A stretch of 64,000 nt of DNA from Zygnema cylindricum (taxonomy: Eukaryota; Streptophyta; Zygnematophyceae; Zygnematales; Zygnemataceae). Of this stretch, positions 1,207 to 63,927 are shown piece after piece (the stretch's first letter is position 1; the number at the start of each line of letters is the position of its first letter). Below the pieces are notes generated by a model. That model saw only the letters and a list, made by a program, of their open reading frames with translations, was not told the DNA's origin and did not search any database. Position numbers and translations under genes: made by a program. Location of the stretch: the NCBI GenBank assembly GCA_037447655.1, contig JBBHKE010000729.1, positions 1 to 64,000 of the forward strand, read 5' to 3'.

Positions 1207-1938
1207 TTATCGGGGAGAGACAGTGATGTTGGCGTCAGATTCAACCAACTTTCCATTTCTGAACTCGCTAACAGCGGCCAAAGGCCATGTAAATCCCTTT
1301 GACATGATACCCAAAGCAAGAGGGACATCAATGATAATCTCCTTCTCGGTAGGTTTTGCCTCAGTTTTGATGGCTTGGATGTACGCTCGTCCAACCCATC
1401 CGATCCATCCGGTAATATAGAGGAAGACGATTCCTGGATAGACGAACTCTCCAAGATGAGCCTGGTCACCATCGACGATCAAATGAGGAAGACCGTCTGT
1501 TCCGCAGAGAAGTCCCTGCTTGCCATAGTAGTCAAATCTCCTGTTGGTCTTCTCAATGGTTGCCTTCAAAGCAAGGGCAGGAGCACTGTCGGCAGAGTAA
1601 AGCTTGAGTCTCTTCTCAAGCTTCTTCACCTCAGCCTTCTTAACCTTAGCGAAAGCCTTGGAGTCCTTGCAAGGAGTAAGTCCAGCAACGTCAGCCATGG
1701 CGGACTCAGGGACGGAGGTACTGACGACAGCGGCCAAAGCGAGGGCAGTTGCAATCTTTCCAACCTGAGAAGCCATAGACTCATCCTTCTTCTCAGCAGC
1801 AGAGCAGACGGTCCTGGAAGCAACCTGCTTCACGAACATGGAAGCCTTGGTGGAAGACATGGACTGGCGAGAGCTCAAGTCCTTTGAGACAGCAGTCAAA
1901 GGAGACACAATGTTGGCAGCCATGGTTACGGAAGCCAT
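1207..1938 (-). CDS. psaF: Photosystem I reaction centre subunit III (PsaF) precursor
   Basis: Complete intronless 243-residue precursor of PsaF, the photosystem I subunit that docks plastocyanin or cytochrome c6 on the lumenal side. Residues 1 to about 55 are a Ser/Ala/Lys-rich chloroplast transit peptide. Residues about 57-82 (basic start, hydrophobic Ala/Val core, AMA before D83) look like a thylakoid-lumen signal, so the mature protein should start at DVAGLTPC. Supporting features are the lysine-rich donor-docking helix (about 98-112), two cysteines (C90, C145) likely to form the lumenal disulfide, the [12 protein letters not shown] block, one membrane span (about 165-188) and the EIIIDVPLA stretch. 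The C-terminus NITVSPR resembles green-algal PsaF as I recall it. Two further in-frame ATGs follow the first within 6 codons, so the exact start is slightly uncertain. The frame is intact, unlike everything else in the window. Confidence 0.96.
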
Positions 1939-2310
1939 TGTGAACTACTGAGGTGGAAGAAAAAGCTCGTAAAAAGATTGGAGGAAAACAGAGTTGATAT
2001 CAAATTTCAAGCAGGTAGACTTTGTACTGGTTCAAGAAGTTTTGAGTGTAAGATTTTACATGGATGAGTTTTGCTGACATTGGGAAGGAGAGAAGATTTC
2101 CGTGGAACATGAAGACGTTCCGTGGAACGGGAGCCAATCAGTGAGATTTTTCCGCTAATGTTTCGTGACCGACGAAAGAGTCGTCCACTTAGCGGTGACG
2201 TTACATAACGAAAGCCAATCATAGCGGGAGAAAAAGTTTAACCAGCCAATCATCCGAAGTTTTTTATTTTCCGTGAGCCAATCACAGCTCGGTATAATCG
2301 ATAAGATGGA
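1939..2310 (-). promoter_or_regulatory. Likely psaF upstream region with four CCAAT boxes
   Basis: Read on the plus strand, AGCCAATC occurs at 2132-2139, 2213-2220, 2244-2251 and 2276-2283, always in the same orientation. It is therefore ATTGGCT-oriented towards psaF. A GATAAG I-box-like word lies at 2300-2305, a TGACGT core near 2195 and two TTCCGTGGAAC repeats at about 2098-2130. No convincing TATA box is seen; the leader is pyrimidine-rich, as reported for TATA-less photosystem I nuclear genes in plants. Function is inferred from position and motif density only. Confidence 0.55.
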
Positions 2311-8618: not shown

Positions 8619-8779
8619 GGAGTGGGCACAGAGTGGGGCAAGGAGAGGGAAAAGGAGAGGGAGAAGGACTGTGAAAAGAGTGGGGAGAGAATCGGAAGGG
8701 AGAGGAGAATAAGGAGCTTTGAACTGCTTCGTTATTTTCCACTCCTTGCAATAACCTTCGAGGAAAACAAACTCTTCGA

Positions 8780-9445
8780 ATAGATTTCAGTTTCTTTTCG
8801 AAAAATTTCAGTTTTTCTCCGAATAAATTTCAGTTTTTCTTCGGATAGATTTCAGTTTTTCTTCTAATAGATTTTAGTTTTTCTTCGAATAGATTTCAGT
8901 TTTTCTTGAGATAGATTTCAGGGTTTCTTGGAATAGATTTCAGGTTTTCTTTTCTTCGGATAGATTTCAGTTTTTCTTCAAATATATTTCAGTTTTTCTT
9001 CGAATAGATTTCAGTTTTTCTTCGGATAGATTTCAGGTTTTCTTCAAATAGATTTCAAGTTTTCTTCGAATAGATTTCAGTTTTTTCTCGAATAGATTTC
9101 AGTTTTTCTTTGAATAGATTTTAGTTTTTTTTTCGAATAGATTTCAGTTTTTTTCCGAAAAGATTTCAGTTTTTTTTCGAAAAGATTTCAGTTTTTTTCC
9201 GAAAAGATTTCAGTATTTTTTCGAATAAATTTCAGTTTTTCTCCAAATAAATTTCAGTTTTTCTTGGGATAGATTTAAGTTTTTCTTCGTATAGATTTCA
9301 GTTTTTCTTCAAAATGATTTCAGGTTTTCTTCGAATAGATTTCAGTTTTTCTTCGAATAGATTTCACATTTTTTTCGAATAGATTTCAGTCTTTTTTGGA
9401 ATAGATTTCAGATTTTTTTCGAAAAGATTTCAGTTATTTTTCGAA
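8780..9445. repeat. 22-bp minisatellite, about 30 units
   Basis: Degenerate tandem repeats of a unit close to TCGAATAGATTTCAGTTTTT with 21-24-bp periodicity. Variation is mostly in T-run length and in the CGAATAGA word (CGGATAGA, CGAAAAGA, CAAATAGA). It sits between the first two transposase exons on the minus strand, so it is probably intronic. Confidence 0.92.
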
Positions 9446-10067
9446 AAACTAACGTCGTTGGTATTCGACGACAGTGCACGAGGATCGAACATATCGACAT
9501 TAAGGGGGGGGAACGAGAGGAAAACGGAGAGAGAAAACCTAACGCAAGCATAAAGGGAGAGATAAACTGCATGCCACAATATAAGCAAACTTTTAATAAG
9601 ACACACAATGTAGACAGCCAAAAAAAAAAATCAAATAAGGTAAGGAGAAAAGGTATAATATCTCACTTGGATAATAATCCCCCGTAAAGTGTTCAGGAAA
9701 ATGATTGAAGGTCCTCGGGACAAGGCTATCCTTTCCGGTTTGCATGACAATCCTCGATAATCCAGTTGATTACCCCATCGCGAGTAGATTTTGTCGAAAC
9801 TTGTTGAAGTTTGCGTCTCAACGACGGGGCGATTGCATGGTCCACACGTGGTGAGTCCGGAGGGCATTCCGGTGGTGAGTTTGGAGGTGAGTCGAAATCG
9901 GTTGTACCGCCTTCAATGAAGATGTCATCGTTCGGTGACCCTATCCTTTCACTTGCCTCTCCCTCTCCCTCTCCTTGAGCCCAATCCATCTCCTCCTCAA
10001 CCAGTTGCGGAAAAATTTCAGCGGGAGCCCTGCTTTTTGCCGCAAAAAAGGTGGTAATGGGCCACAT

Positions 10068-14687: not shown

Positions 14688-14799
14688 TGTTGTCTTTTGG
14701 AAAGCTTTCAGCCTCAGAGCAGCGCAGCAGCGCAGCAGCGCAGCAGCAGCTATACAGCAGCGCAGCAGCAGAGCAGCGCAGCAACGAAGCTGCAACACA
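14688..14799 (+). repeat. Element C 5' LTR, first part
   Basis: Starts TGTTGTCTTTTGGAAAGC and continues into AGCAGCGC-rich repeats, which are longer than in the 3' LTR (27483 onward). Ends with ACACA (14795-14799), the target duplication of the inserted family-A array. Confidence 0.88.
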
Positions 14800-14875
14800 T
14801 GTTGGAATTCAAGTATTTTCTAGGTCTAGAGATTGCAAAATAAAAAGCAAAATAGTAGATATTGACAGCCTGCCT

Positions 14876-14935
14876 CTAACTCCTCCTCAAGTCCCCACAC
14901 TTGTCGCAGTCACTGAAGACTGGAGGAGGAGTTAG
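14876..14935 (+). other. Conserved U3 hairpin 1
   Basis: CTAACTCCTCCTC (14876-14888) pairs perfectly with GAGGAGGAGTTAG (14923-14935) around a 34-base loop containing CTTGTCGCAGTCACTGAAG. An outer GACAGC/GCTGTC pair flanks it. The same loop with different but still pairing stems recurs in all A-like LTRs here and in those of E and F; see the finding on covariation. Confidence 0.75.
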
Positions 14936-15007
14936 CCATGGCTGCCTGTGCTGTCTAGAGGGAGACAGACAGTTGTTTTATAGGGGGTTTTCCCTAAAAG
15001 GTAGTTT

Positions 15008-15048
15008 TGACAGAGCCAGGATTTGATCCTGGTACCTACAATTTGTCA
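15008..15048 (+). other. U3 hairpin 2, complementary to initiator tRNA-Met T-arm
   Basis: TGACA/TGTCA closes a loop whose sequence from CAGAGCCAGG to GATCCTGG is close to the reverse complement of the T-arm of plant initiator tRNA-Met (tRNA recalled from memory). Read antisense, it is a 5-bp stem with a 7-base loop beginning ATC, the A54 initiator signature. Repeated at 15237-15277 by the local duplication. Confidence 0.6.
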
Positions 15049-16201
15049 CAACCGCGATAGCCGGTAGTCTTATCCAGATAGTCTAAATTTTATTTAGCCT
15101 GCCTCTAACTCCTCCTCAAGTCCCCACACTTGTCGCAGTCACTGAAGACTGGAGGAGGAGTTAGCCATGGCTGCCTGTGCTGTCTAGAGGGAGACAGACA
15201 GTTGTTTTATAGGGGGTTTTCCCTAAAAGGTAGTTTTGACAGAGCCAGGATTTGATCCTGGTACCTGCAATTTGTCACAACCGCGATAGCCGGTAGTCTT
15301 ATCCAGATAGTCTAAATTTTATTAGGTATTACTAGGTATGATGTTTATTTAAACAGTTACAATAAGACAAATTCATTTAACTAGAACTATATGCATACTG
15401 CATAGAAACAGTTGTGTAAAGTACGACGTACGGTACGAATAGGAAATAAATACCGCGCAGTTTGTTTGACGCCGGAAAGAATACCGCGCAGGTATTTATG
15501 ACGGCCACGATTGAAATCTAATTTGATCGGACGGCCGCAAAGGATGCCAAGATCGCGGCGTACGATTTTGGCGGTTTGCGATCACCGCGATATTGAGTGA
15601 CACGTGGTAACACTACATTGGATTGCGGCAACTCCGGAGATTACGGGAACAAATCCGAATATGACACGTGTCGACATTTTGGCCATGTTGTACAATGGCC
15701 GTACATAAAGTACACCGGCACTTGTACTTTTCTCTACGATACCGTAATTTGATTGGTGCCGTACTTCAGTAGATAGAGTTTTAGAGAGGGAATAGGACTT
15801 AGATAAAATTTGGGTAGGCAGCTGCCTCTCCCAAAGAGCACCCTGTATAAATGGCAAACTTTGGCCAGCCATAACTATCAATTTACTTGACCATTTTCAG
15901 TGATTCTTTTTGTTGCGGACTCAGGGGAGTCTAGGCTACACAGGTGTGTAGTCGATCAGAGTTTTTGTCTGCCAGGGTGGCTGTATTTCTAAGAGAAAGT
16001 CAAAGTGGGTGAATGTGTCCAAATCTCATATTCTAACTTTGCATTCTGTGGTGGAACTGAGCACACAGAAAGTGTTATTTCACAGGGGTGAATCTATATT
16101 GGGGTTCTGACTGTCAAGGGGTCAGTCACTTGGGTTTATATTAACTTGGAGTCGGCACTATCTAGATTAGCTTCTTTTGGATCTGCATACTCTGAGGGCC
16201 A

Positions 16202-18190
16202 ATGGAGGTCTCAGAGTTTCAGGTTATGGGCCCACCATCTAGGGTGCCTATGTTTGATGGAACAGACTTCACCTATTGGGAGTTTACAATGGCGGGATTG
16301 CTTTTTGAGAAACACTTATGGGGAATTGTTTCGGGACAAGTGAGATGTCCGCCACCTGGCTTTGGAGGAGCTTACTATGGAGATTCATCTAAGGCTGCCC
16401 AGAATATCATCCGGAGCTCAGATGCAACGGAAGGTGAAGGGAAGAATCTTTCCGTGGATGGGGAAATAGGGGAGAAGGAAAAAGGGACACCTATGGTGAG
16501 GGGAGCTAGGCTCTCAGCTATGGTACCACAGGTAAGGATTAAAACTGAAGAAAATGACAGAAAAGTATGGGAATACAAAAACACTATAGCAAAACATCTC
16601 ATACTTAGATATGTGTCTAAGTCGATAGCTATCACTCTTTTAAGTCTAACCAAGTCTTCAGAGATATGGGAAGTACTAACTCAGATTTATAAGAGTCAGA
16701 CTATTCAGAGGCAGCAATTAGTAAAACAGGAAATAGATGCCTATGTTTATAAAGGCGGTAGCATGATAGAGTTTTGCAATGATATTGTTGCGTTATATGT
16801 TGAGCTAGCTAGTGCGGAATGTGTAGAATCTGAGGAGGGTAAGATTAATACACTACTTATGAAACTCCTAAGTGAGTACGAAAGCATTATTTATCGTATG
16901 CAGGCAATGGATGGCTCCTCATGGACTTGGAGCTTTACCATGGGGATAATTCTTCTAAGGGAAAGCACTTTGGAGCTTCGTAGGGGAAAGGACAGGGTCA
17001 ATGCATTTTCAGCTGGTGGTGATTGGCGGAAGCGTGATGAGAGGAACGGCGGTGACGAGCGGAAACGTGATGAGAGGAACGGTGGTGACGAGCGGAAGCG
17101 TGATGAGAGAAAGAAAGACAAAGGTAAACCTTATCGGAACTTTGGTGGAAAGAGAGGGAGAGGAAAAGAAAGGGGAGCTTTGAAAAGGGGGGCTTGCTTC
17201 TTTTGTAGGGAACCGGGTCATTATATGGAGGAATGCCCTTGTTTGGAAAAACTTAGAAGTTGGAATGTGGATGAGGAGGAAGTAGGGGAAGAGGAGAAAG
17301 AGGATGAAGATATTTTAGAGCTTCTCCGGATTAGTAGTATGGGGAAGAAAGAAAAGCACACAGTAATTGCACGAAGGCAACAGTGTGCTTTTGGAGGTAT
17401 AAGGGAAGTAAAGAGAGAGGAGGTACTTGAGGATGTCGAGGAGTGTAGAGTGTATGACTTAGAAATGAAAAAGTCAGCTCTAGGATCCATAAGTGAAAAC
17501 GGGAAAGATAAAATTAATCAGGATAACTTTATAGATAATAGGGAACCAGAAAACTGGTCGGAAAGGGAGACTTCAACGGATTCCGGGGAAAGGGGAGAAG
17601 TGAAACTCGAAGAGGTTTCAAAGGATAGGGGAGAAGAGAAATATTTGATTAAAGGTTTAGGGGAGAAGAAATATTTATTGGGAATTAAATTAGAAATTAA
17701 TAGTGGAAAGAATTCCATGGGAGAGAGTGAGGGAAGTTCAGAAAATGGGGTAATTATCATGGATAAAAATATGAGTACGAAAGATGTAGATCTTATGAGG
17801 AACTTAGTGGGGACTAGTGGTTTTTGGGAATATTTGGGGGTGGATGGATTTGACATCACTACTTGGTGTGACGAAGATGTGCCTGTAAAAGAGTTAGCAT
17901 CTAGGTGTATGTTGCAGATTGGAAATGGGGCTGGCTATTTGAATCGCAAGAGGGAAATCGGTTTGTGTGTGGATGAAAGAGTGATGAAGTGGATAAAATC
18001 TTTGCTCGAATTTAAGAAAAATGGGATGTTAAATAAAATGTGTAATACAATTATCATTTCAGTTCATTTAATGCACTGTGTTAAATACTTAAGTTTTATG
18101 AAAGGAAAAGGAAAAAGAAAAAAAAAAAAGGAAAAAGGGGAGGGGATGTTTGTTTACTTGTTTGTGGAAGTTGAAAGAAAAATAAACTAG
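16202..18190 (+). CDS. Family A Gag with C-terminal RNase H remnant, copy 1
   Basis: 662-residue open frame, the only product of the element. The start ATG lies 20 bases inside the LTR, and the frame crosses the LTR end and primer-binding site as EFQVMGPPSR. Residues about 115-265 resemble copia-type Gag (UBN2 family). Residues about 271-308 are charged repeats of the RKRDERNGGDE type. A canonical CX2CX4HX4C zinc knuckle is at 332-345 (CFFCREPGHYMEEC). The RRQQCAF word marks where autonomous relatives begin protease, but no DSGA site follows. From about 551 (DITTWCDE) to 605, weak but colinear similarity to the RNase H of element E is visible (GNGA, then MKWIKSLL aligned with MWVKSLL). The acidic C-terminal region ends in a Lys-run. 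It probably forms particles that capture its own RNA; enzymes must come from elsewhere. Confidence 0.85.
   Translation: MEVSEFQVMGPPSRVPMFDGTDFTYWEFTMAGLLFEKHLWGIVSGQVRCPPPGFGGAYYGDSSKAAQNIIRSSDATEGEGKNLSVDGEIGEKEKGTPMVRGARLSAMVPQVRIKTEENDRKVWEYKNTIAKHLILRYVSKSIAITLLSLTKSSEIWEVLTQIYKSQTIQRQQLVKQEIDAYVYKGGSMIEFCNDIVALYVELASAECVESEEGKINTLLMKLLSEYESIIYRMQAMDGSSWTWSFTMGIILLRESTLELRRGKDRVNAFSAGGDWRKRDERNGGDERKRDERNGGDERKRDERKKDKGKPYRNFGGKRGRGKERGALKRGACFFCREPGHYMEECPCLEKLRSWNVDEEEVGEEEKEDEDILELLRISSMGKKEKHTVIARRQQCAFGGIREVKREEVLEDVEECRVYDLEMKKSALGSISENGKDKINQDNFIDNREPENWSERETSTDSGERGEVKLEEVSKDRGEEKYLIKGLGEKKYLLGIKLEINSGKNSMGESEGSSENGVIIMDKNMSTKDVDLMRNLVGTSGFWEYLGVDGFDITTWCDEDVPVKELASRCMLQIGNGAGYLNRKREIGLCVDERVMKWIKSLLEFKKNGMLNKMCNTIIISVHLMHCVKYLSFMKGKGKRKKKKEKGEGMFVYLFVEVERKIN
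16222..16236 (+). promoter_or_regulatory. Primer-binding site (half initiator tRNA-Met type)
   Basis: GGTTATGGGCCCACC directly abuts the LTR end. It is the complement of the initiator tRNA-Met anticodon arm, the site used by Drosophila copia with a 5' half-tRNA primer. Here it is also coding (VMGPP). Equivalent sites: 19397, 23195, 33184-33197 (minus), 45616, 48107, 50436 and about 58459 (minus). Confidence 0.85.
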
Positions 18191-18203
18191 AAAATAAGGG
18201 GAG

Positions 18204-19396
18204 TGTTGGAATTCAAGTATTTTCTATGTCTAGAGATTGCAAAATAAAAAGCAAAATAGTAGATATTGACAGCCTGCCTCTAACTCCTCCTCAAGTCCCC
18301 ACACTTGTCGCAGTCACTGAAGACTGGAGGAGGAGTTAGCCATGGCTGCCTGTGCTGTCTAGAGGGAGACAGACAGTTGTTTTATAGGGGGTTTTCCCTA
18401 AAAGGTAGTTTTGACAGAGCCAGGATTTGATCCTGGTACCTGCAATTTGTCACAACCGCGATAGCCGGTAATCTTATCCAGATAGTCTAAATTTTATTAG
18501 GTATTACTAGGTATGATGTTTATTTAAACAGTTACAATAAGACAAATTCATTTAACTAGAACTATATGCATACTGCATAGAAACAGTTGTGTAAAGTACG
18601 ACGTACGGTACGAATAGGAAATAAATACCGCGCAGTTTGTTTGACGCCGGAAAGAATACCGCGCAGGTATTTATGACGGCCACGATTGAAATCTAATTTG
18701 ATCGGACGGCCGCAAAGGATGCCAAGATCGCGGCGTACGATTTTGGCGGTTTGCGATCACCGCGATATTGAGTGACACGTGGTAACACTACATTGGATTG
18801 CGGCAACTCCGGAGATTACGGGAACAAATCCGAATATGACACGTGTCGACATTTTGGCCATGTTGTACAATGGCCGTACATAAAGTACACCGGCACTTGT
18901 ACTTTTCTCTACGATACCGTAATTTGATTGGTGCCGTACTTCAGTAGATAGAGTTTTAGAGAGGGAATAGGACTTAGATAAAATTTGGGTAGGCAGCTGC
19001 CTCTCCCAAAGAGCACCCTGTATAAATGGCAAACTTTGGCCAGCCATAACTATCAATTTACTTGACCATTTTCAGTGATTCTTTTTGTTGCGGACTCAGG
19101 GGAGTCTAGGCTACACAGGTGTGTAGTCGATCAGAGTTTTTGTCTGCCAGGGTGGCTGTATTTCTAAGAGAAAGTCAAAGTGGGTGAATGTGTCCAAATC
19201 TCATATTCTAACTTTGCATTCTGTGGTGGAACTGAGCACACAGAAAGTGTTATTTCACAGGGGTGAATCTATATTGGGGTTCTGACTGTCAAGGGGTCAG
19301 TCACTTGGGTTTATATTAACTTGGAGTCGGCACTATCTAGATTAGCTTCTTTTGGATCTGCATACTCTGAGGGCCAATGGAGGTCTCAGAGTTTCA
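18204..19396 (+). repeat. Family A LTR 2 (middle, chimeric)
   Basis: 1193 bp. Its first ~270 bases carry the LTR 3 variants (CTATGTCTAG; A at 18471), and everything from 18617 on carries LTR 1 variants. It is therefore a recombinant between the two outer LTRs. It contains the same hairpins (18280-18339; T-arm complement 18420-18436), CACGTG, GTAC and TATA motifs. Confidence 0.93.
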
Positions 19397-21365
19397 GGTT
19401 ATGGGCCCACCATCTAGGGTGCCTATGTTTGATGGAACAGACTTCACCTATTGGGAGTTTACAATGGCGGGATTGCTTTTTGAGAAACACTTATGGGGAA
19501 TTGTTTCGGGACAAGTGAGATGTCCGCCACCTGGCTTTGGAGGAGCTTACTATGGAGATTCATCTAAGGCTGCCCAGAATATCATCCGGAGCTCAGATGC
19601 AACGGAAGGTGAAGGGAAGAATCTTTCCGTGGATGGGGAAATAGGGGAGAAGGAAAAAGGGACACCTATGGTGAGGGGAGCTAGGCTCTCAGCTATGGTA
19701 CCACAGGTAAGGATTAAAACTGAAGAAAATGACAGAAAAGTATGGGAATACAAAAACACTATAGCAAAACATCTCATACTTAGATATGTGTCTAAGTCGA
19801 TAGCTATCACTCTTTTAAGTCTAACCAAGTCTTCAGAGATATGGGAAGTACTAACTCAGATTTATAAGAGTCAGACTATTCAGAGGCAGCAATTAGTAAA
19901 ACAGGAAATAGATGCCTATGTTTATAAAGGCGGTAGCATGATAGAGTTTTGCAATGATATTGTTGCGTTATATGTTGAGCTAGCTAGTGCGGAATGTGTA
20001 GAATCTGAGGAGGGTAAGATTAATACACTACTTATGAAACTCCTAAGTGAGTACGAAAGCATTATTTATCGTATGCAGGCAATGGATGGCTCCTCATGGA
20101 CTTGGAGCTTTACCATGGGGATAATTCTTCTAAGGGAAAGCACTTTGGAGCTTCGTAGGGGAAAGGACAGGGTCAATGCATTTTCAGCTGGTGGTGATTG
20201 GCGGAAGCGTGATGAGAGGAACGGCGGTGACGAGCGGAAACGTGATGAGAGGAACGGTGGTGACGAGCGGAAGCGTGATGAGAGAAAGAAAGACAAAGGT
20301 AAACCTTATCGGAACTTTGGTGGAAAGAGAGGGAGAGGAAAAGAAAGGGGAGCTTTGAAAAGGGGGGCTTGCTTCTTTTGTAGGGAACCGGGTCATTATA
20401 TGGAGGAATGCCCTTGTTTGGAAAAACTTAGAAGTTGGAATGTGGATGAGGAGGAAGTAGGGGAAGAGGAGAAAGAGGATGAAGATATTTTAGAGCTTCT
20501 CCGGATTAGTAGTATGGGGAAGAAAGAAAAGCACACAGTAATTGCACGAAGGCAACAGTGTGCTTTTGGAGGTATAAGGGAAGTAAAGAGAGAGGAGGTA
20601 CTTGAGGATGTCGAGGAGTGTAGAGTGTATGACTTAGAAATGAAAAAGTCAGCTCTAGGATCCATAAGTGAAAACGGGAAAGATAAAATTAATCAGGATA
20701 ACTTTATAGATAATAGGGAACCAGAAAACTGGTCGGAAAGGGAGACTTCAACGGATTCCGAGGAAAGGGGAGAAGTGAAACTCGAAGAGGTTTCAAAGGA
20801 TAGGGGAGAAGAGAAATATTTGATTAAAGGTTTAGGGGAGAAGAAATATTTATTGGGAATTAAATTAGAAATTAATAGTGGAAAGAATTCCATGGGAGAG
20901 AGTGAGGGAAGTTCAGAAAATGGGGTAATTATCATGGATAAAAATATGAGTACGAAAGATGTAGATCTTATGAGGAACTTAGTGGGGACTAGTGGTTTTT
21001 GGGAATATTTGGGGGTGGATGGATTTGACATCACTACTTGGTGTGACGAAGATGTGCCTGTAAAAGAGTTAGCATCTAGGTGTATGTTGCAGATTGGAAA
21101 TGGGGCTGGCTATTTGAATCGCAAGAGGGAAATCGGTTTGTGTGTGGATGAAAGAGTGATGAAGTGGATAAAATCTTTGCTCGAATTTAAGAAAAATGGG
21201 ATGTTAAATAAAATGTGTAATACAATTATCATTTCAGTTCATTTAATGCACTGTGTTAAATACTTAAGTTTTATGAAAGGAAAAGGAAAAAGAAAAAAAA
21301 AAAAGGAAAAAGGGGAGGGGATGTTTGTTTACTTGTTTGTGGAAGTTGAAAGAAAAATAAACTAG
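19377..21365 (+). CDS. Family A Gag with C-terminal RNase H remnant, copy 2
   Basis: 662 residues, identical to copy 1 except for one Gly-to-Glu difference in the TDS(G/E)ERGE stretch. Same layout: start codon inside the LTR, VMGPP across the primer site, Gag core, charged repeats, CX2CX4HX4C knuckle, RNase H remnant and basic C-terminal run. It is followed after a few bases by the polypurine tract and LTR 3. The near identity to copy 1 fits recent tandem duplication rather than independent insertion. Confidence 0.85.
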   Translation: MEVSEFQVMGPPSRVPMFDGTDFTYWEFTMAGLLFEKHLWGIVSGQVRCPPPGFGGAYYGDSSKAAQNIIRSSDATEGEGKNLSVDGEIGEKEKGTPMVRGARLSAMVPQVRIKTEENDRKVWEYKNTIAKHLILRYVSKSIAITLLSLTKSSEIWEVLTQIYKSQTIQRQQLVKQEIDAYVYKGGSMIEFCNDIVALYVELASAECVESEEGKINTLLMKLLSEYESIIYRMQAMDGSSWTWSFTMGIILLRESTLELRRGKDRVNAFSAGGDWRKRDERNGGDERKRDERNGGDERKRDERKKDKGKPYRNFGGKRGRGKERGALKRGACFFCREPGHYMEECPCLEKLRSWNVDEEEVGEEEKEDEDILELLRISSMGKKEKHTVIARRQQCAFGGIREVKREEVLEDVEECRVYDLEMKKSALGSISENGKDKINQDNFIDNREPENWSERETSTDSEERGEVKLEEVSKDRGEEKYLIKGLGEKKYLLGIKLEINSGKNSMGESEGSSENGVIIMDKNMSTKDVDLMRNLVGTSGFWEYLGVDGFDITTWCDEDVPVKELASRCMLQIGNGAGYLNRKREIGLCVDERVMKWIKSLLEFKKNGMLNKMCNTIIISVHLMHCVKYLSFMKGKGKRKKKKEKGEGMFVYLFVEVERKIN

Positions 21366-21378
21366 AAAATAAGGGGAG

Positions 21379-22571
21379 TGTTGGAATTCAAGTATTTTCT
21401 ATGTCTAGAGATTGCAAAATAAAAAGCAAAATAGTAGATATTGACAGCCTGCCTCTAACTCCTCCTCAAGTCCCCACACTTGTCGCAGTCACTGAAGACT
21501 GGAGGAGGAGTTAGCCATGGCTGCCTGTGCTGTCTAGAGGGAGACAGACAGTTGTTTTATAGGGGGTTTTCCCTAAAAGGTAGTTTTGACAGAGCCAGGA
21601 TTTGATCCTGGTACCTGCAATTTGTCACAACCGCGATAGCCGGTAATCTTATCCAGATAGTCTAAATTTTATTAGGTATTACTAGGTATGATGTTTATTT
21701 AAACAGTTACAATAAGACAAATTCATTTAACTAGAACTATATGCATACTGCATAGAAACAGTTGTGTAAAGTACGACGTACGGTACGAATACGAAATAAA
21801 TACCGCGCAGTTTGTTTGACGCCGGAAAGAATACCGCGCAGGTATTTATGACGGCCACGATTGAAATCTAATTTGATCGGACGGCCGCAAAGGATGCCGA
21901 GATCGCGGCGTACGATTTTGGCGGTTTGCGATCACCGCGATATTGAGTGACACGTGGTAACACTACATTGGATTGCAGCAACTCCGGAGATTACGGGAAC
22001 AAATCCGAATATGACACGTGTCGACATTTTGGCCATGTTGTACAATGGCCATACATAAAGTACACCGGCACCTGTACTTTTCTCTACGATACAGTAATTT
22101 GATTGGTGCCGTACTTCAGTAGATAGAGTTTTAGAGAGGGAATAGGACTTAGATAAAATTTGGGTAGGCAGCTGCCTCTCCCAGAGAGCACCCTGTATAA
22201 ATGGCAAACTTTGGCCAGCCATAACTATCAATTTACTTGACCATTTTCAGTGATTCTTTTTGTTGCGGACTCAAGGGAGTCTAGGCTACACAAGGGTGTA
22301 GTCGGTCAGAGTTTTTGTCTGCCAGGATGGCTGTCTTTCTAAGGGAAAGTCAAAGTGGGTGAATGTGTCCAAATCTCATATTCTAACTTTGCATTCTGTG
22401 GTGGAACTGAGCACACATAAAGTGTTATTTCACAGGGGTGAATCTATATTGGGGTTTTGACTGTCAAGGGGTCAGTCACTTGGGTTTATATTAACTTGGA
22501 GTCTGCACTATCTAGATTAGCTTCTTTTGGATCTGCATACTCTGAGGGCCAATGGAGGTCTCAGAGTTTCA
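21379..22571 (+). repeat. Family A LTR 3
   Basis: 1193 bp, TGTTGG to TTTCA, followed by the ACACA target duplication. It differs from LTR 2 at more than a dozen positions, all in the part after the inferred crossover, so it keeps the divergence of the original insertion. Hairpin 1 is at 21455-21514 and the T-arm complement at 21595-21611. Confidence 0.93.
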
Positions 22572-22576
22572 ACACA

Positions 22577-23194
22577 AACAGGACAACGCAACCACGATTA
22601 TATTTGATATGGTCCGTACGGACAAGGCAGCTTCTGATATTCTTAATGTGATTCTGTACAGGATAGAGCAACTGCGATAGATACGATTCTAGTAAACTTA
22701 GTGGGTAACTCAGTGGTAACTTAGTGGGTAACTCAGTGGTAGCTTAGTGGGTAACTCAGTGGTAACTTAGTGGGTAACTCAGTGGTAGCTTAGTGATAGC
22801 TCAGTGGTAGCTTAGTGATAGCTCAGTGGTAGCTTGACAGATTAGTGGTAACTTGGTGGTTTGACGTACCTCTTAAGTACACTGGTGTTGCCAGTTCAAC
22901 ACAAGTATAGGACTTAGGACTCAGAACATATTATGTATACAGTTTTTGGGAAACTTCTGAGTATTATATCTTGAGTGTTGTCAGGTCAATTGTGCTGAAA
23001 CTTTGGGAGTTGTCAGTGTTTATGCAACTCTATATTGTTATAGATTTTTTTGATGTTTGGATGCTTTTATAAGAATTGGTGAGCACTTAAGAACAACTGT
23101 TTGGTAGGATTTTTGATAGATTGTGAGAGTGTATCATGTCTACTTCTACTACTACTGCTGCTCCTCCACCTGCAACGATGGTCGTAAAACAATA
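22577..23194 (+). repeat. Element C 5' LTR, second part
   Basis: Resumes after the A insertion. At 22690-22860 it holds tandem repeats alternating GTGGGTAACTTA and GATAGCTCAGTGGTAGC-type words; the 3' LTR has fewer units (27640-27745). It includes the gag ATG at 23136 and ends at 23194 with TA instead of the expected CA (the 3' LTR keeps CA). Confidence 0.88.
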
Positions 23195-28103: not shown

Positions 28104-28802
28104 CGCCTCAAAAACTCTAATTCTTTGAACCTCTACTCAGAGCTACATACTTCTAAACCCAAGACGTATGAGAGGACTGTACAGTACAAAAAGCTATAGT
28201 GGTCGGTGTACTTTTTGTACGGCTATTGTACGACATGGCTTTTCTGGTTGAGGCCTATCAGCTTGGGAGCCATGGTTCCTCCTCTTGTGTTCTCCGCTGG
28301 CTAACAATATGTCGCCACAAGGCATTACGTGACATTGTATTTGAAAGCCGCCAAAAGTTTATTCCGGTTTGGCGGCGTGAATGTCGACCATCGGATCACG
28401 CTAATTTGTGGGGTCTGATTCGCGTCTTTTGATTTCGTACATTTATATGTACATCGTCGTTTGTTCATGCCGTTAAATGAATTAGCCGACGAAATACCTA
28501 TTGCGCCCCGTATGTGTATCGTTTCTTTCTACAACTTAGGGGATAAGGTGAAAGGCGATTCCGTACGGCGGTTACCTGGGAGAAACTAGGATCGAATCCC
28601 AAACAGACTGCCTAACTTTTGTTAAGGACCGATCCTCCTTCTCCATTGGTCTGTCTCTCTATCTGCCTAAGGCAGCCATAGGTGCTGTGAGTCCTCAGTG
28701 AATACGACAAGTATGTGAGACCTCATTGACTACGACAAGTATGAGGGCTCACTAACATCACAGAATAACAAAAGATAGACATACAAAAAACCTTTTTCAA
28801 CA
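28104..28802 (-). repeat. Element B 3' LTR, proximal part
   Basis: Continuation of 14431-14687 after element C. It includes a GTAC palindrome (28183-28222), the B-box-like GGATCGAATCC (28589-28599), a CAGTGAATACGACAAGTATG hairpin-loop relative, and the LTR start (TCAACA on plus at 28797-28802). It abuts the polypurine tract complement, ATCCCTTTATTTTT. Confidence 0.85.
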
Positions 28803-37264: not shown

Positions 37265-37672
37265 TAACAGTCCGTACTATTTGTTTCGTTCGATACTTAA
37301 AAGTACAATTGTTTCTATGCCATTTAAACCGTAATCCACCTAAACAGAAAACCGTAGTAAATACTATTTAAATCTCTACCAAACCCGTTACGTGCTAGCA
37401 TAAATCTCAGACTAAACGGATAAGGCCAACGGCTATTGGTTTGGACGGTAGGTACCAGGATCAATTCCTATTTCCGTCAAATACTTTTTTGGTAAGTCTT
37501 ACCAAATCTACACCCTTTCTCCATAGAGAGCCTAGGCAGCCATGGAATTGCTCCCTGCCAGCCTTCAGTGACTACAACAAATGTGGGAGCTTCGAGAAGG
37601 GAGTTAGAGGCAGACTGCCTCTTCTTTTTTTCCTATACTAAAACAGACCTAGAAAATACTCAAATATCAACA
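37265..37672 (-). repeat. Copia LTR fragment (5' part, minus orientation)
   Basis: Inverted U3 piece ending TCAAATATCAACA (the complement of TGTTGATATTTGA). It contains the T-arm complement (GGTACCAGGATCAATTCC near 37450) and hairpin 1 (about 37552-37608). Confidence 0.75.
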
Positions 37673-38351
37673 ACTTTCTGTACGGCCATCGTACAACATG
37701 GCCAAAATGTCGACACGTGTCAAATCGCGATTTGTTCCCGTAATGTCCAGAGTTGCCTCAATCCTATATTATCGCGCCACGTGTCACTCGATGTGGCGAT
37801 GATCGCAAACCGCCGTGATTCTCTTCCGCGATCTCGGCATCCTTCCCCGCCGTCCGATCAAAACTACATTTCAATCGTAGCCGTCATAAATACTTGCGTG
37901 GTATTTGTTTCGCTATCAAAACAAAATGCGCGGTATCTGTTTCTTCTGCGTACCGTACTCCGTACTCTATATAAATGAATTTATCCATCCTGAATGAAGT
38001 TTCAGTTGAATGAATTAGTCTACGTGTAAATCTTTATATAATTGTTAAACCCTATATCATTTAACACTAGTCTTAAACTAAATGGTTAAGGCTAACGGCT
38101 AGCTAGGCAGATGGCAGGTACTCGGATCAAAATCTTGGGTCCGTCGAAATCTTTTAGGTAACTCTATCAAGATTTGGATTCCTGTCCTCTTTGTATGGCC
38201 TAGGCAGCCATGGATCTAACCCTTCCTCAAGTCCTCAATGACTGCGACAAGTGTGGGGATTTGAGTGAAGAGTTAGAGGCAGGCTGTCAGTGTCTCTTCT
38301 TTGCTTTTTAATTTACAATCTCTAGACCTAGAAAATACTTGAATTTCAACA
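37673..38351 (-). repeat. Copia LTR fragment (minus orientation)
   Basis: Second inverted LTR piece ending GAATTTCAACA at 38351. It contains CACGTG near 37781, GTAC clusters near 37950, the tRNA-like region near 38080-38150 and hairpin 1 at about 38211-38272. Abutting fragments of one family suggest nested insertion with truncation. Confidence 0.75.
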
Positions 38352-44421: not shown

Positions 44422-45615
44422 TGTTGAAATTGAAGTATTTTCTAGGTCTAGAGATTGTAAAATAAAAAAGGCAAAAAGGGGACACTGACAACCTACCTCT
44501 AACTCTTCACTCAAGTCCCCACACTTGTCGCAGTCATTGAAGACTTGAAGAGGAGTTAGATCCATGGCTGCCTAGGCTGTCCAAAGTGGACAGGAAGGCA
44601 ATTCTTAATAGAGTTATCTAAAAGGTGTGACGGACCTAGGATTTGATCGTGGTACCTGCCGTCCGTCAAACTAGCCGTTCGCTTTAACCAACAAGTCTAA
44701 ATACAGTGCTAGAGTACAATGGGTTTGACAGATGTTTTTATTCGTACACGTAGACTAGTTCGTCTAACGGGAATAGATACGTAATGCATAGATACAGTTT
44801 TGTATAGTACGGAGTACGATTTAATGTATTTTATAAAACGGATACCACGCATTTGTTTCGAACGCGAAACAAATATCGCACGTATATTTTGCAACGGCTA
44901 CAATTGTATCCGGTTTGATCGGACGGCCACGATAGGCGCCGCGATCACGGATTATGTACTTTTGGCGTTTTTCAATCATCGCCACGTCATGTGACACGTG
45001 GCGCGACAATGTTGGATTGCGGCGACTCCGGAGATTGCGGTAACAAATCCGGCTATGACACATATCGACATTTTGGCCATGTTGTACAATGTCCATACAG
45101 AAAGTACATCGGCACCTGTACTTTTCTGTACGACACACTAATTTGATTGGTGTTGTACTTCAGTAGATAGAGTTTTAGAGAGGGAATAGGACTTAGAAAA
45201 TTTTGGGTAAGTAGCTGCCTCTCCTAGAGAGCACCTTGTATAAATGGCAAACTTTGGCCAGCCATAACTATCAATTTACTTGACCATTTTCAGTGATTCT
45301 TTTTGCTGCGAACTCAAGGGAGTCCAGGCTACACAGCGGTGTAGTCGGTCAGAGTTTTTGTCTGCCAGGGTGGCGTTATTTCTAAGGGGAAGTCAAAGTG
45401 GGTGAATGTGTCCAAATCTCATATTCTAACTTTGCATTCTGTGGTGGAACTGACCACACAGAAAGTGTTATTTCACAGGGGTGAATCTATATTTGGGTTC
45501 TGATTGTCAAGGGGTCAGTCATTTGGGTTTATATCAACTTGGAGTCGGCACTATCTAGATAAGCTTCTTTTTGGATCTGCTTACTCTGAGGGCCAATGGA
45601 GGTCTCAGAGTTTCA
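44422..45615 (+). repeat. Family A LTR (outer subfamily)
   Basis: TGTTGAAATTGAAG to GAGTTTCA. Hairpin 1 at 44499-44559; T-arm complement within TGACGGAC/GTCCGTCA at about 44628-44669; CACGTG near 44995; GTAC palindrome near 45098-45132; TATAAAT near 45239. Confidence 0.9.
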
Positions 45616-46942: not shown

Positions 46943-48106
46943 TGTTGATATTTGAGTATTTTCTAGGTCTGTATTATAATAGGAAAAATGTAGAGGCGGT
47001 CTACCTCTAACTCCCTTTACCAAGCCCCCACACTTGTTGTAGTCACTGAAGGCTGGGTAGGGTGATAGGGCCATGGCTGCCTAAAGCTTTGTAGCAGACA
47101 GTTAGCAGAAAATAGATGGGTTTACTAAAAGTATTGACGGACCCATGAATTGATCCTGGTACCTGCCGTCCGTCAATGTAGCCATTAGCTTTGTCCGTTT
47201 AGTCTAGGACTAGTGCTAGGACATATAGGGTTTGATAATTATATAAATATGTACACGTAGACGAATTCATTTAACGGCGCAAAAAGATCCTTAGTACATA
47301 GAAACAATCTAGTGAACTATGGTTTACGCGAAACTGATACCGCGCATTTGTTTTGACGGCGAAACAAATACCGCGCACTTATTTTCGACGGGTAAGAATG
47401 GATACCAGATTTAATCGACGGCCGTGGTGCTAGCCGAGATTCCGGAATGGCCGCCTTGGCGTTTTCTGACGCCGCCACTCCGGATGAAACGTGGAAATGC
47501 GCTGGAGGATTGCGGAATCTCCGGAGCGCAAGATAACAAGTTTGGGTGTGACATTTGTCACTCGTATGGTCTTGTCGTACAATTTCCGTACAGAAAGTAC
47601 TCCGGCGCCTGTACTTCTATGTACGGTACAGTCCTGTGATTGGCGCCGTACTTCAGTAGAAGGGGTTTAGAGAGGGACTAGAACTTAGAATATTTCTGGT
47701 AGGTAGATGCCTCTCCCAGAGAGCACCTTGTATAAATGGCAAACTTTGGCCAACCATAACTATCAATTCAGTTGACCAAATTCAGTGATTCTTGGTGCTG
47801 CGGACTCATGGGAGTCCACGCTACACAGGGGTGTAGTCGGTCAGAGTTTTTTCCTGCTTGGGTGGCTGCATTTCTAAGGGAAAGTCAAAGTGGGGAATGT
47901 TATCCTAAACTCATATTCTAACTTTGCATTCTGTAGTGAAACTGAGAACACAGAAAGTCTTATTTCACAGGGGTGAAGCTGTAATGGGGTTTTGATTGTC
48001 AAGGGGTCAATCATTTGGGTTTATATTAACTTGGAGTCGTCACTATCTAGATTAGCTTCCTTTGGACCTGCGAATTCTGTGTGGCAATGGAGCCCATAGA
48101 ATTTCA
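46943..48106 (+). repeat. Family A LTR (inner subfamily)
   Basis: TGTTGATATTTGAG to ATAGAATTTCA. Hairpin 1 at about 47007-47070; T-arm complement hairpin TGACGGAC/GTCCGTCA at 47135-47175; GTAC palindrome 47586-47626 (nearly perfect, CCGTAC to GTACGG); TATAAAT near 47731. The gag ATG is at 48087. Confidence 0.9.
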
Positions 48107-52291: not shown

Positions 52292-53427
52292 TGTTGATAT
52301 TTGAGTATTTTCTAGGTCTATTAGGATAAAAAAAGAGCAGAGGTAGCCTGCCTCTAACTCCCTTCTCCAAGCCCCCACACTTGTCGTAGTCACTGAAGGC
52401 TAGATTGGGAGCTATAGCCATGGCTGCCTAAGCTCACTAGAGAAGAGAGGGGTTGATTTAGGTAGATGTACCAAAAGGTACTTGATGGACCCACGAATGG
52501 ATCCTGGTACCTGCCGTCCGTCAGATGACCCGTAGCCGGTAGCTTTGTCCATTTAGTCTAGAACTAATGATAAGGTATATTGGGTTTGATATATATATAA
52601 ACATCTACACGTAGGATTTTCCATTTAACTAGATTACGGTTTATCGGACATAGAAACAGTTGTACTATTAGTACCAGACAAAACAAATCGTACGGACATT
52701 TGTTTCGACGGTCCGTATTAAATACCGATATCAATCGGACGGCCGTGGTTAGCGCCGGCTTCGCGGAAAGGACAATTTGGCGGTTTGCGGACTCCGCCAC
52801 TCCGGATGACACGTGGCAACATCATACAGGTTTACGGAATCTCCGGAACGGAAGACAACAAATCCGAATGTGACAAATGTCGCATAATGGCGACGTCGTA
52901 CACTGTCCGTACAAAAAGTACACCAGCATCTATACTTTCTTGTACGGTACAGTCCTAAGATTGGTCATTAGCTCAGTACTAGAAGGTTTAGAGAGGGTTT
53001 TAGGACTTAGAATATTTTTAAGGAGGTAGCCGCCTCTCCCAGGGAGCATCTTGTATAAATGGCAAACTTTGGCCAGCCATAACTATTAACTCAGTTGACC
53101 AAATTCAGTGATTCTTTTTGCTGCAGACTCACGGGAGTCCAAGCTACACAGGATTGTAATCGGTCAAAGTGTTTGCATACCAGGGTGGCTGCATTTCTAA
53201 GGGAAAGTCAAAATGGGTGAATGTGCCCAAATCTCATATTCTAACTTTGCATTATGTGGTGGAACTGAGCACACAGAAAGTCTTATTTAACAGGGGTGAA
53301 GCTGTAATGGGGTTCTGTTTGTCAAGGGGTCAATCATTTGGGTTTATATAAACTTGGAGTCGGCACTATCTAGATTAGCTTCTTTTGATCTGCGAATTCT
53401 GTGTGGCAATGGAGCCATAGAATTTCA
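52292..53427 (+). repeat. Family A LTR (inner subfamily)
   Basis: TGTTGATATTTGAG to ATAGAATTTCA. Hairpin 1 at 52354-52416; T-arm complement hairpin TGATGGAC/GTCCGTCA (one G-T pair) near 52481-52525; a TCCGTACAA word at 52906-52914; TATAAAT near 53054. A one-base deletion disrupts the gag start region (ATGGAGCCATAG). Confidence 0.88.
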
Positions 53428-55300: not shown

Positions 55301-58182
55301 TAATAAGTTGTTTCTGAATTAACAATATCACCTTGCCCTTAGAAAAATAGATATAAAGATAGGATTCAGAATAATAGCAAACGAGCTGGACATATCCCCA
55401 AAAAGCAACTCTAACAACAAGAGGAGACAAATCTCTCTCGAAGACACCGAAACAGATAATGTCCTCCTTAACTCCTCGGTTTCCGTAACCTAGAACCGGC
55501 AAGACCCCTCTCGGTATTAAACAGCCACAAGTCCCAAATCGCCCAAAAAGGAAAGATAGTGCCAACTACCCACCCGGACTATGATTTCCACAAAGGACAA
55601 ATGCAAACCAAGATGGCAGTACGGTCACAATCACACAACAAACAAAGGTTCTCCAAAAGAAGGTTTGTTGCAATTTTCTAGGGTTTTTATCAGGAGACAG
55701 TACTGAAACATTAACGTGTCTCCTTCGGCCCCAAGCGCCTTATACAACAAAGTTTGTCCGGTTTCAGATGTAAAAGGACAACGCAATGCAAGGAGCCAAT
55801 GAGCGGAGAGCAATTGCTATCGAACTGACATAGGACAAATAAAGTTGTACCACACTCAGGACAAAAAGTTATACTTCGGACTCCGACTAAATCTAGAACT
55901 GAGAGTCCAAATTGGAACCACTAACCTACCAAAAATCCTGAACTGGCGGTGGAACACCAGACTTGGACCTAGGGTAATTAATGGACCAGAAGTCAGTTGA
56001 ACGTGAACTGAATTTCTACTTACATCTTACAGCATAATCTAGATGACAATCCTAAAAGTTACGTGGCAATCCACAATGTACCCCCCACGAGGGCTGGTGG
56101 AAGCTAGTCCCATTTAACGGAATTGCAATCTTCGAGACGAGAGAACTTGGCCGTCCGGCCTCCGTTAGGCGCGAAATAAAGTGCGTCCCGCACAGTTTGG
56201 TAAATACAAGGATCTTGTCTAGCTGGGTGCACTCACTGCTTTGTACTTTGATGACCGTATTGGTTAAAAAGGACTCCGAAGTCCTTGGTAATATAAACGT
56301 GTGCCGAAAACGCACACGAGCTTGACAAGGACCAAAGCTTTAGTGAAAGTATATAGGTCAAGCTTTAAAAGGTCAAGAGAATCATATGATTTGATCAACG
56401 GCAGGTGCGGTGGTGCGAAGGGCTCAAAGGGCCTCAACAATTGACTTCATTGTTGGCAATGGTGCGAAAGTCCGGAAGCGAGCAACATAGAGAGTTCACC
56501 ACATCGCCCATGGTGCACAACACGGCGAATGCGGGCTGTGGATGTAAGAAGTGGAGCTTGTCATGGAAAGGGAAATGACTTTGTCCATGTTCTCTAGCTG
56601 AAAAGATTTCAAATCAGCACGCAAAAATCTTCAACATTTAGAACGTGTTTCTCGTGCCCCTGTAGCACCCCAGCGGGAATGTAAGACCAAAACCTAATGC
56701 AAAAAACAAAAGTCAAAGATGTTTGGGCCTCTGGTAATGGACGTCGTCAACTAGATATCGAGTGGGAACCGAAAAGATGCTTGGACGTCTCCTCAGAGAT
56801 GAGGAGGAATGTGAGAGTAAAGTCGAGGCCGGGGGTAACCGAGATCGTAGCAACCTAACACGTCAAGGGTACGGATGAACTCCCAATCAATGTGAGAGGG
56901 GTGTCGCTGAATGGGGGGAGGGGGGTTTTAAGTGTCGACCCGCCTTGCGAATGTGAAGGAGCCGAACAACCCGATGGACACGTTTGCACATGACTGACTA
57001 AACCGGCATTGGCAGCATAAGGCTTCTCACAGCCCAAATATAGAACCTGATATGTCTGAGCACCTGAAGAAGGTTTGACAATCGGAGGAGGATGAGGAGT
57101 TTGGTTACTCGGAGGTTGTGAGGTAAAAGAAGGTACATGAGACAGGGATGCAACAGGTGAAGTGATGAGAGGGTTATAGGGCGAAAGTGTTGGCGCGGTT
57201 GGCGGAACCAAGGCGGGAGGGGGCTAGAGGAGGAGGGGTTCAACATATAACCAATGGTGGTTGCGGAAGGGGAGAGTTTGGGATAAGTCCCAAACCCAAA
57301 ATGTTGGATGGCTCTCGATGATCAGGGAAACATTGACGTGTTGTTGATATAGAAAAGGGTTCTTCATCATAGGTTGGGGAAAGGCAATGAGGTTGGGAGG
57401 ATCTTTGGTGTAACAAGGTTGGGCAGAGGGTTGAGGTTGGGGTTTGGCAATTATCAGTTGAGGAGCCAACACAAGAGGGTGAGACGACCTTAGGAAAGGG
57501 TGACACAGTCAAAAGTTTGTGGAAGATGACGGGGAAAGGGGTCGTGATGCCTGCCGCTTTTGAGGGGCCATAGGGAGGGGCTACAATTGAAGATACTGAA
57601 ACAAAAAACGAACTCACTCGAGAACCTGACTGGATCTTCTTAAAACTAATGGAGAGATAATGGTTTCGCTATACGCTACAAAATCAAAGACTCCCCTAAT
57701 GAAAAAAGAAATCCTAAATCAATTAACCCCGTTTTGGGTCTCTTTTTGTTGTTTTTGTGATGTTGTGGGGAAGTGTTTTTTTTTTTTATCTTAGTTATTA
57801 GCATTATATACTCTACTTTCGCACTAACGCTGTTAAATATTTAATGCTAGTACGTAATAAAAATCAGCCTCGTAGTTGTCAATGTGAGTAGATCAAACAA
57901 CTTTCATCGATTAAACCTTGGTTTTCACATTTACACATGTTCTTCAAATCGTTTATACGTGTTTCTAACCTTACATCTTTTTCAAAAAATTCACTAAGTA
58001 TTCTTAAATCCATACCGTTAAAAATGTTATCTTCACAACATTTTTAGTGCAGTTTGTTTTCAGCATGGTCTCTTGTGCCTTTACGTAGTTTAAACTCGAT
58101 GAAACTCACCATAGAACTACAATATTAAGCAGCCTTCCCCATCGTCAAGAGCGAGGGGGAGAGAGAGAGAGAGAGAGAGAGA
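55301..58182. other. Unassigned spacer with weak minus-strand coding traces
   Basis: No confident gene. Minus-strand frames at 57617-57240 and 57211-56855 are Pro/Ser/Thr-rich; the latter contains CEKPYAANAGLVSHVQTC, loosely like a C2H2 finger, but the two frames do not join. An ORF at 56052-56315 (minus) is unrecognised. A GA-dinucleotide run abuts the gap at 58157-58182. Confidence 0.35.
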
Positions 58183-62911: not shown

Positions 62912-63927
62912 TGTTGAAATTATAGGTTTACTGAGGTATTTTTTAGGTAACTTAATTGATTTAAGTAGGAGCAGGAAAAAGCAGAGGCAGCCTGCTTCTA
63001 ACTTCTCTCTCTAGCCCCTCTACTTGCCGTAGTCACTGAAGGTTGGAGTGGAAGCTAGAGCCATGGCTGCCTATGCTTCCCTTAGAATCTGAAGGCAATC
63101 GTTTTTGGTAATCTTATCAAAAAGGTTGACGAACCCATGGTTTGATCCTTGTACCTACCGTTTGTCAATTTGCCTGTAGTCGATAGCTTTCGCCTATAGA
63201 CTAGGACCTGTGCTAAAGTATATAAGGTACAATAGCTAGTTAAAGATGTGGAAATATAGAAGTTCATTTAACTGACAAACGGACCACAATCACATTGAGA
63301 TAGATAGATATAGTTACGTCAAAAAATACCAAATGTATTTTAAACAGCCCTAAATTAAGGTCGATATCAATCGGACGGCGGAAGAAGAAGTCAGGATTAC
63401 GGAATGGACGTTTTGGCGGTTTGCTGTCACAGCCACACCGGGTGACACGTGGCAACATGACATTGGATATCGGCATCTCCGAGACATACTATGGCGAACC
63501 CGGATATGGCTAGCGTCGTCTTCTTGGCCATATCGTACAACGACCGTACACAAAGTACTACAAGCCAAGTACCTTTCTGTACTGTACAGTGAATTGATTG
63601 GCCCTGTACCTCAGTAATTAACAGATTAGAGAGGGATTTAGGACTTAGGAAAATTAGAGGTAGCCGCCTTTCTCTCCCAATGTGCTCCTATATAAAATGT
63701 CATCTTTGACCATTGATAATTAAATGCTCAAGGGAGCAAATTCAAGGATTCTTTTGTGGTAGACTCAAAGGAGTCTGTTCTTCGAAGGGCAGGAGTCTAG
63801 TCAATTTGTATTCTATCAACGTCAACGTGTCAGTAATACTCAACCTAAAGACTGAAGGATTGAGGCTATCCTAGGGGCTTCAGGTAAGCTGCCTACTCTA
63901 AGTACCAATGGAGGTCTCAGAGTTACA
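62912..63927 (+). repeat. Element E 3' LTR
   Basis: TGTTGAAATTATAGG to ATGGAGGTCTCAGAGTTACA; the last 20 bases include the gag start codon, as in family A. Hairpin 1 at about 62997-63060; T-arm complement hairpin TGACGAAC/GTTTGTCA at 63127-63167; CACGTG near 63446; GTAC palindrome near 63545-63585; TATATAAAAT near 63691. Confidence 0.88.

Follow-up and report, generated by a model that had tools for sequence, protein, structure and literature searches.

A U3 stretch complementary to the T arm of initiator tRNA in the LTRs of a Copia-type element of Zygnema cylindricum, and its relation to a proposed antisense tRNA-like module

The U3 region of the long terminal repeats (LTRs) of a gag-coding, Copia-type element in Zygnema cylindricum contains a stretch that is really complementary to initiator tRNA (iMet), and an old tRNA-derived module fits this stretch better than a proven second docking site for the primer. 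The reading proposed here is that the stretch descends from iMet in antisense, or closely resembles it, and that it is part of a tRNA-like module; the element RNA would be complementary to the T arm of its primer tRNA because of that descent or resemblance. That an antisense iMet-like tRNA module was fixed in U3, and is there by descent, has about an even chance of being correct. The window, which is the whole stretch of 64,000 nucleotides that was analysed, contains the element and several related LTRs (Table 1).

Element architecture and the probable half-tRNA primer

Positions 14800-22571 are occupied by three LTRs and two internal regions in the order LTR-gag-LTR-gag-LTR, with a single target site duplication at the outer ends. 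Within U3 of LTR1, and not of LTR2 or LTR3, a cassette is duplicated near-exactly in tandem with a 229-nt step. LTR1 differs from LTR2 at one of 1126 compared positions and from LTR3 at 18, and the two internal parts differ at one position. The gag frame of 662 codons matches Retrotran_gag_2 (E 2.2e-13) and has a zinc-knuckle match below the curated cut-off; a 258-aa gag piece returned no homologues from a set of candidates that excluded proteins much longer than the piece. Among the listed frames of at least 150 aa, 14800-22571 holds none besides the two gag frames. The polypurine tract that precedes LTR2 also precedes LTR3. Copia-type features are present in gag of the element and in the reverse transcriptase domain RVT_2 at 60665-61966 (E 1.5e-59), after which comes a related LTR at about 62.9-63.9 kb. 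Because the gag frame runs through U5 and the primer binding site (PBS), the letters of the PBS code for VMGPP within it (16196-16260, 19371-19435); another gag-like frame (58125-58595, minus strand) also starts with MGPP. A long conserved hairpin in U3 (14870-14939 and 15099-15168) has a sub-threshold match to MIR473 (25.1 bits, gathering 52).

Table 1. Coordinates of the element, its tRNA-related features and related LTR stretches in the window
Feature	Positions	Strand	Basis or remark
LTR1, 1422 bp, U3 cassette duplicated in tandem	14800..16221	+	self-alignment; ends TGTTGG...TTTCA
LTR2, 1193 bp	18204..19396	+	self-alignment and sequence
LTR3, 1193 bp	21379..22571	+	self-alignment and sequence
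Target site duplication ACACA (5 bp), 5' copy	14795..14799	.	sequence
Target site duplication ACACA, 3' copy	22572..22576	.	sequence
U3 cassette of LTR1, first tandem copy	14867..15094	+	1 difference in 228
U3 cassette of LTR1, second tandem copy	15096..15323	+	self-alignment
gag frame 1, Copia-type (Retrotran_gag_2)	16196..18190	+	overlaps U5 and PBS
gag frame 2, one residue different from gag frame 1	19371..21365	+	
Polypurine tract preceding LTR2	18191..18203	+	sequence
PBS of first unit, 16/16 complementary to iMet nt 24-39 (anticodon arm)	16222..16237	+	
PBS of second unit, complementary to iMet nt 24-39	19397..19412	+	
U3 stretch complementary to iMet nt 43-69, LTR1 first cassette	15011..15037	+	
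U3 stretch complementary to iMet nt 42-69 (25/28), LTR1 second cassette	15240..15267	+	
U3 stretch complementary to iMet nt 42-69 (25/28), LTR2	18415..18442	+	
U3 stretch complementary to iMet nt 42-69 (25/28), LTR3	21590..21617	+	
Antisense tRNA-like module, LTR1 first cassette, D-arm-like and T-arm-like parts	15016..15085	-	15.6 bits, E 0.012
Antisense tRNA-like module, LTR1 second cassette	15237..15312	-	12.7 bits, E 0.11
Antisense tRNA-like module, LTR2	18412..18487	-	13.7 bits, E 0.051
Antisense tRNA-like module, LTR3	21587..21662	-	13.7 bits, E 0.051
Related weaker stretch, score 26	44631..44658	+	
Related weaker stretch, score 26; antisense module 47135-47174 (-)	47138..47165	+	
Related weaker stretch, score 24	52487..52513	+	
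Related weaker stretch, score 19 ungapped; LTR downstream of Copia-type reverse transcriptase coding sequence	63135..63156	+	
Module in minus-strand LTR near 37.45 kb	37408..37488	+	profile search
Module in minus-strand LTR near 38.11 kb	38073..38155	+	profile search

The PBS directly adjoins the 3' end of LTR1 and of LTR2. A search of the 353-Mb assembly with iMet returned 12 places, of which eight span 71-72 of the 72 nt and one matches nt 6-72 at 82%; two native iMet genes are identical at 72/72 to the plant iMet sequence. The remaining places hold nt 8-39 (L020) or nt 1-39 (L018:1501-1539 on C2151 and L019:1501-1539 on C741), the latter two at the place of a PBS, with nothing further of the tRNA, and identical to the variant iMet gene L012 at 39/39 letters. 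The piece in L018 joins the U5 end of the same LTR superfamily on one side and a gag leader on the other, and that in L019 comes after another LTR-like end. Each of these two pieces has the appearance of a PBS for which a 5' half tRNA of 39 nt was copied over its whole length, and under either reading of the U3 stretch they seem to be direct traces, in the genome of a streptophyte, of priming by a half tRNA. Because the PBS pairs with nt 24-39 and these loci carry exactly nt 1-39, the primer of the element would be the 5' half of iMet, with the T arm absent, as far as the footprints rather than the primer itself can tell. A PBS against the anticodon arm together with footprints of a 5'-half iMet is the arrangement of half-tRNA-primed Copia elements. 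A classical iMet PBS was sought in the window and rejected, the best matches reaching just 12/16 with the U3 stretch itself among them. After element A (LTR 22764-23192), the same PBS begins at 23195 and is present for its first ten letters, but the LTR of element A has no U3 match to iMet at a score of 18 or more.

Complementarity of U3 to initiator tRNA

The initial annotation had described the U3 stretch of LTR1-3 as complementary to the T arm and variable region of iMet at about 25 of 29 positions, and comparison with the native iMet genes bears out the match, with the count corrected to 25 of 28. LTR1 has two copies of the stretch because of its tandem duplication, and all are oriented correctly for pairing with the element RNA. 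The tRNAs compared were 41 of 42 distinct native sequences called by ARAGORN (a 190-nt one was left out), with the isotypes Arg, Asn, Cys, Gln, Lys, iMet, Phe and Trp as well as two that the program labelled Pyl, and 13 additional tRNAs. Local-alignment scores of the LTR1-3 type against iMet are 39-41, compared to 20 for the next tRNA, at best 24 for the opposite strand, and 27-28 for the 99% level of shuffled controls (best over all tRNAs), so that the match of this type is more than chance. Six other copies in the window score 21-26 against their own 99% levels of 24-26: one is above that level, one equals it, two lie between 95% and 99%, and two fall below 95%. iMet is the top tRNA for five of the six and tied with Trp for one, and it is top or tied top for 8/8 window segments; the weaker versions named in the initial annotation are all present among the related stretches of Table 1. 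When the unit LTR2-LTR3 is compared on both strands with native tRNAs only, its best matches are the U3 stretch (41) and the PBS (32), both complementary to iMet, in agreement with the earlier statement that the two sites share one tRNA; the third-best match (25) lies within gag, where 15 nt agree with iMet in sense. The ATC start of the loop, which the initial annotation took to distinguish initiator tRNAs, also occurs in plant tRNA-Ala. An origin from tRNA-Arg, suggested by the D-arm-like letters, was dropped, the 8-12 matching letters being at chance level.

A genome scan with nt 42-69, allowing up to three mismatches, found at least 49 matches and none for the reversed control. These comprise six iMet genes, 39 matches assigned by their letters, which are exactly those of LTR1-3, and four others (L105-L108), all four in LTRs of the same superfamily as LTR1-3; L107 has 26/28 pairs with the iMet variant of which half-tRNA copies are present. 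No unrelated LTR family was noticed among the matches listed, and the U3 stretch is common to diverged LTR subfamilies. In the reverse direction, a profile of eight U3 segments was searched against 285 kb, made up of the window together with 76 loci, among which 30 came from a search for the tRNA family. Outside the presumed LTR family it returned only the iMet genes L013 (E 0.0053) and L012 (E 0.023); no tRNA match at E of 1 or less appeared in the other five of the seven full-length iMet gene loci included, or in the 30 tRNA-family loci.

Over 17 mutually related copies, four of which were chosen for iMet similarity, 19-26 of 28 positions form Watson-Crick pairs with nt 42-69, and 12 of the 17 copies have 19-22 pairs; the part opposite nt 42-56 keeps 11-14 of 15, and thirty copies of the 52-kb type have 20-24 of 28. 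The tRNA nucleotide 47 is unpaired in 17/17 copies and nucleotide 59 in 16/17. Changes among these related copies comprise 20 that keep a wobble pair, 15 transitions that break pairing and 65 transversions, raw counts with no clear bias towards pairing, and pairing with iMet does not look like something held by selection. In 11 copies, of which four were chosen for iMet similarity, the duplex predicted with the 3' half of iMet has an energy of -23.5 to -52.7 kcal/mol, with z from -2.4 to -10.5, and the stretch of the LTR1-3 type is predicted to fold on itself at -16.1 kcal/mol.

The proposed antisense module, its conservation and the competing explanations

A tRNA covariance model built without iMet from 18 tRNAs (10 native, 8 additional) was applied to 79 kb, which comprised the window plus five tRNA loci. 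Its five best matches in the window are U3 stretches on the minus strand (15.6, 13.7, 13.7, 12.7 and 12.7 bits, E 0.012-0.11), and the next window match has 8.8 bits. The best match aligns to model positions 8-66 and includes both a D-arm-like and a T-arm-like part. Six of the 11 cassette loci exceed 12 bits, i.e. all four that were chosen for iMet similarity and two of seven that were not; c44, c52, c37 and c63 score 4.3-8.3 bits, and c38 has no match with this model. The Rfam tRNA model gives no match at E of 10 or less in a scan of all 4227 families, and ARAGORN calls no tRNA at the stretch. That a model ignorant of iMet finds the stretch adds weight to the alternative offered in the initial annotation, a relic of a tRNA gene.

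The A box, the T-run and the spacing were looked for after the fact. The D-arm score is in the top 5% of background (p<=0.05) in 8/17 copies, and a run of at least four T begins 13-19 nt past the B box in 17/17, compared to a background of 9.75% per 15-nt stretch, although these are not 17 independent events because the copies are related. The spacing between A and B boxes is 46-66 nt, the weakest copies being placed loosely. Columns G53, T55, C56, A58 and C61 are invariant in 8/8 window segments, and A replaces T54. A hairpin with acceptor-like outer arms was considered and rejected: 63 of 81 pairs are Watson-Crick, with compensated changes at two positions, and nine typed copies have six plus-strand and three minus-strand wobbles, too few to decide a strand. 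The inner T stem is mismatched in c44, c47, c52, c63 and L105.

Over seven window copies selected without regard to iMet similarity, mean pairwise identity is 79.8% in the 28-nt stretch, compared to 66.1% for usable LTR columns, and 5.1% of 567 LTR windows are at least as conserved; addition of L105-L108, which were chosen for iMet similarity, gives 80.6% versus 65.6%, with 1.7% of 242 windows as conserved. The D-arm-like part (31% of windows at least as conserved) is not specially conserved, so that only the T-arm part looks constrained; nor is the side of the T-run (45.5% in the same alignment). The LTR start and a block near LTR position 94 are more conserved than the stretch, and a block near position 655, where six sequences are present, is as conserved or more; the LTR therefore has conserved elements of its own. 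Within the LTR1-3 type, compared in 25 copies taken from the matches most like the query, the stretch varies like the whole LTR (0.0214 versus 0.0218 over the first 780 nt) and its conservation ranks at 51% of 1126 windows. A second comparison within a subfamily, in which 12 of 30 copies were counted and minus-strand alignments were left out, gave no conservation signal.

By the module reading, U3 would contain an antisense module resembling initiator tRNA, and the stretch would correspond to its T arm and acceptor. A tRNA-derived sequence would have entered the LTR of a half-tRNA-primed Copia lineage before the subfamilies split and would since have been copied as part of U3, where its T-arm part would be retained for a function in cis, perhaps as a protein site of B-box type or as a hairpin in the RNA. 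A conceivable source of the captured sequence is reverse transcriptase copying tRNA into plus-strand DNA, and the nt 1-39 copies in L018 and L019 suggest that copying of tRNA into DNA occurs in this genome. Descent is favored by the half-tRNA primer, by pair counts that are low in most copies, and by changes that show no clear bias towards pairing. If the origin of the captured tRNA were random, its identity with the primer tRNA would be a coincidence, which counts against the module.

An alternative is a second iMet annealing site, in which the PBS at the 5' end of the element RNA takes nt 24-39 and U3 at the 3' end takes nt 42-69, the tRNA being cut at nt 39/40 between the two sites, so that it would bring about its own recruitment and bridge the RNA ends before or during half-tRNA priming. 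Such a site is rather unlikely, but three points speak for it: one tRNA serves both as primer and as the match of U3, nt 24-39 and nt 42-69 are close to each other, and the T-arm part is conserved where the D-arm part is not. Both of the best tRNA-complementary sites of the unit are for iMet, on which they almost meet at the point of cleavage, and orientation and position fit, but the primer footprint is the 5' half, which has no T arm. While the LTR1-3 type keeps 25/28 pairs and L107, chosen for iMet similarity, has 26/28, the constantly unpaired nt 47, the nearly always unpaired nt 59 and the mixture of wobble-keeping, breaking and transversion changes count against the annealing site. Conservation between subfamilies favors the annealing site, whereas among copies of the LTR1-3 type the stretch is no less variable than the remainder of the LTR; the duplexes predicted with the 3' half of iMet favor it too, but the stretch can also fold on itself, and element A, with the same PBS start, lacks a U3 match. 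That the site is bipartite for the half-tRNA primer, with the PBS holding the 5' half and U3 the other half so that the cut tRNA splints the RNA ends, is unlikely.

An antisense RNA polymerase III unit, in which the minus-strand A box, B box and T-run would direct a short antisense U3 RNA or binding of TFIIIC, is distinctly improbable. It would account for the five invariant columns, the T-run in every copy, the D-arm scores and the success of the iMet-free model, but the part with the D arm and A box is no better conserved than the rest of the LTR, the spacing of the boxes varies, and these features were searched post hoc. That an unrelated conserved U3 element resembles the iMet T arm by chance is already disfavored and very improbable: the other blocks of the LTR that are as conserved or more, and the scores of diverged copies just near their shuffle limits, would be compatible with it, but a score of 41 against a 99% shuffle level of 28, the at least 49 genome matches against none for the reversed control, and the return of two iMet genes by the U3 profile are not what it predicts.

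Relation to known elements

Ty3 and Ty1 have bipartite PBSs, and Ty3 primes from the native 3' end of its tRNA, as described in PMC5371799. The initial annotation had likened the U3 stretch to the bipartite site of Ty3, and part of that comparison holds: a second complement to the T arm of tRNA-iMet is present in U3, at the end of the RNA far from the PBS, in the right orientation, specific to iMet among the tRNAs tested and for the same tRNA as the PBS. The remainder is not supported. Ty3 has an acceptor-end PBS with priming from the intact tRNA 3' end, whereas the PBS here pairs with the anticodon arm, the footprints comprise nt 1-39, the pairing of U3 is predicted from sequence and is not visibly maintained, and element A has no U3 match. 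Ty5 primes from a cut in the anticodon loop and Drosophila copia from a half tRNA (PMC5371799). The element resembles both, the half-tRNA-iMet of copia and the internal priming of yeast Ty5, in its anticodon-region PBS and its predicted cleaved-tRNA primer (iMet nt 1-39). No T-arm complement in a half-tRNA-primed element was found in the largely open-access literature searched, and to our knowledge none is known in U3 of Drosophila copia or Ty5.

Helenus and TRIMp3 have a tRNA-like sequence with boxes A and B in their LTRs, and Helenus families are described as short TRIMs of 311-1263 bp; most of the fungal families have anticodon-loop PBSs, and one family is from a plant, Selaginella (PMC10886601). 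The candidate tRNA-like sequence in the LTR of the element here is picked out in part of the copies by the custom model and not by Rfam or ARAGORN, and the element is neither short nor non-coding, with a gag of 662 codons and LTRs of 1.2-1.4 kb. In contrast to that of Helenus, its module is degenerate, lies in antisense and has a T arm that matches the primer tRNA. Cassandra carries a 5S rRNA-derived sequence in its LTR (PMC10853983 and others) and is described as non-autonomous and without a coding region (PMC7215508). Residence of a small-RNA-gene sequence in an LTR is common to Cassandra and to the present element, in which that sequence is tRNA-like instead of 5S rRNA and a gag frame is present. 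The present element also resembles TR-GAG elements, which are terminal-repeat elements that code for gag only, in having LTRs around a single gag frame, but differs from them in its LTR-gag-LTR-gag-LTR order with one target site duplication. Binding of iMet by the U3 site, if it occurs, would extend the idea of a bipartite primer site to half-tRNA priming and suggest how an intact tRNA is brought in and cut; if U3 holds a resident antisense tRNA module, the element would be a coding, antisense counterpart of the TRIMs that carry tRNA-like sequences.

Elsewhere in the window, 28106-28672 is the LTR of a minus-strand Copia-type element that has the same kind of B-box letters and a T-run, with little similarity to iMet beyond the B-box letters. 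A PsaF-like frame at 1207-1944 (minus strand) identifies the host as a streptophyte, since its best matches with an organism name come from mosses (Physcomitrium patens 69%) and from zygnematophyte algae (Closterium 68%). A 22-bp tandem repeat array is located at 8748-9507.
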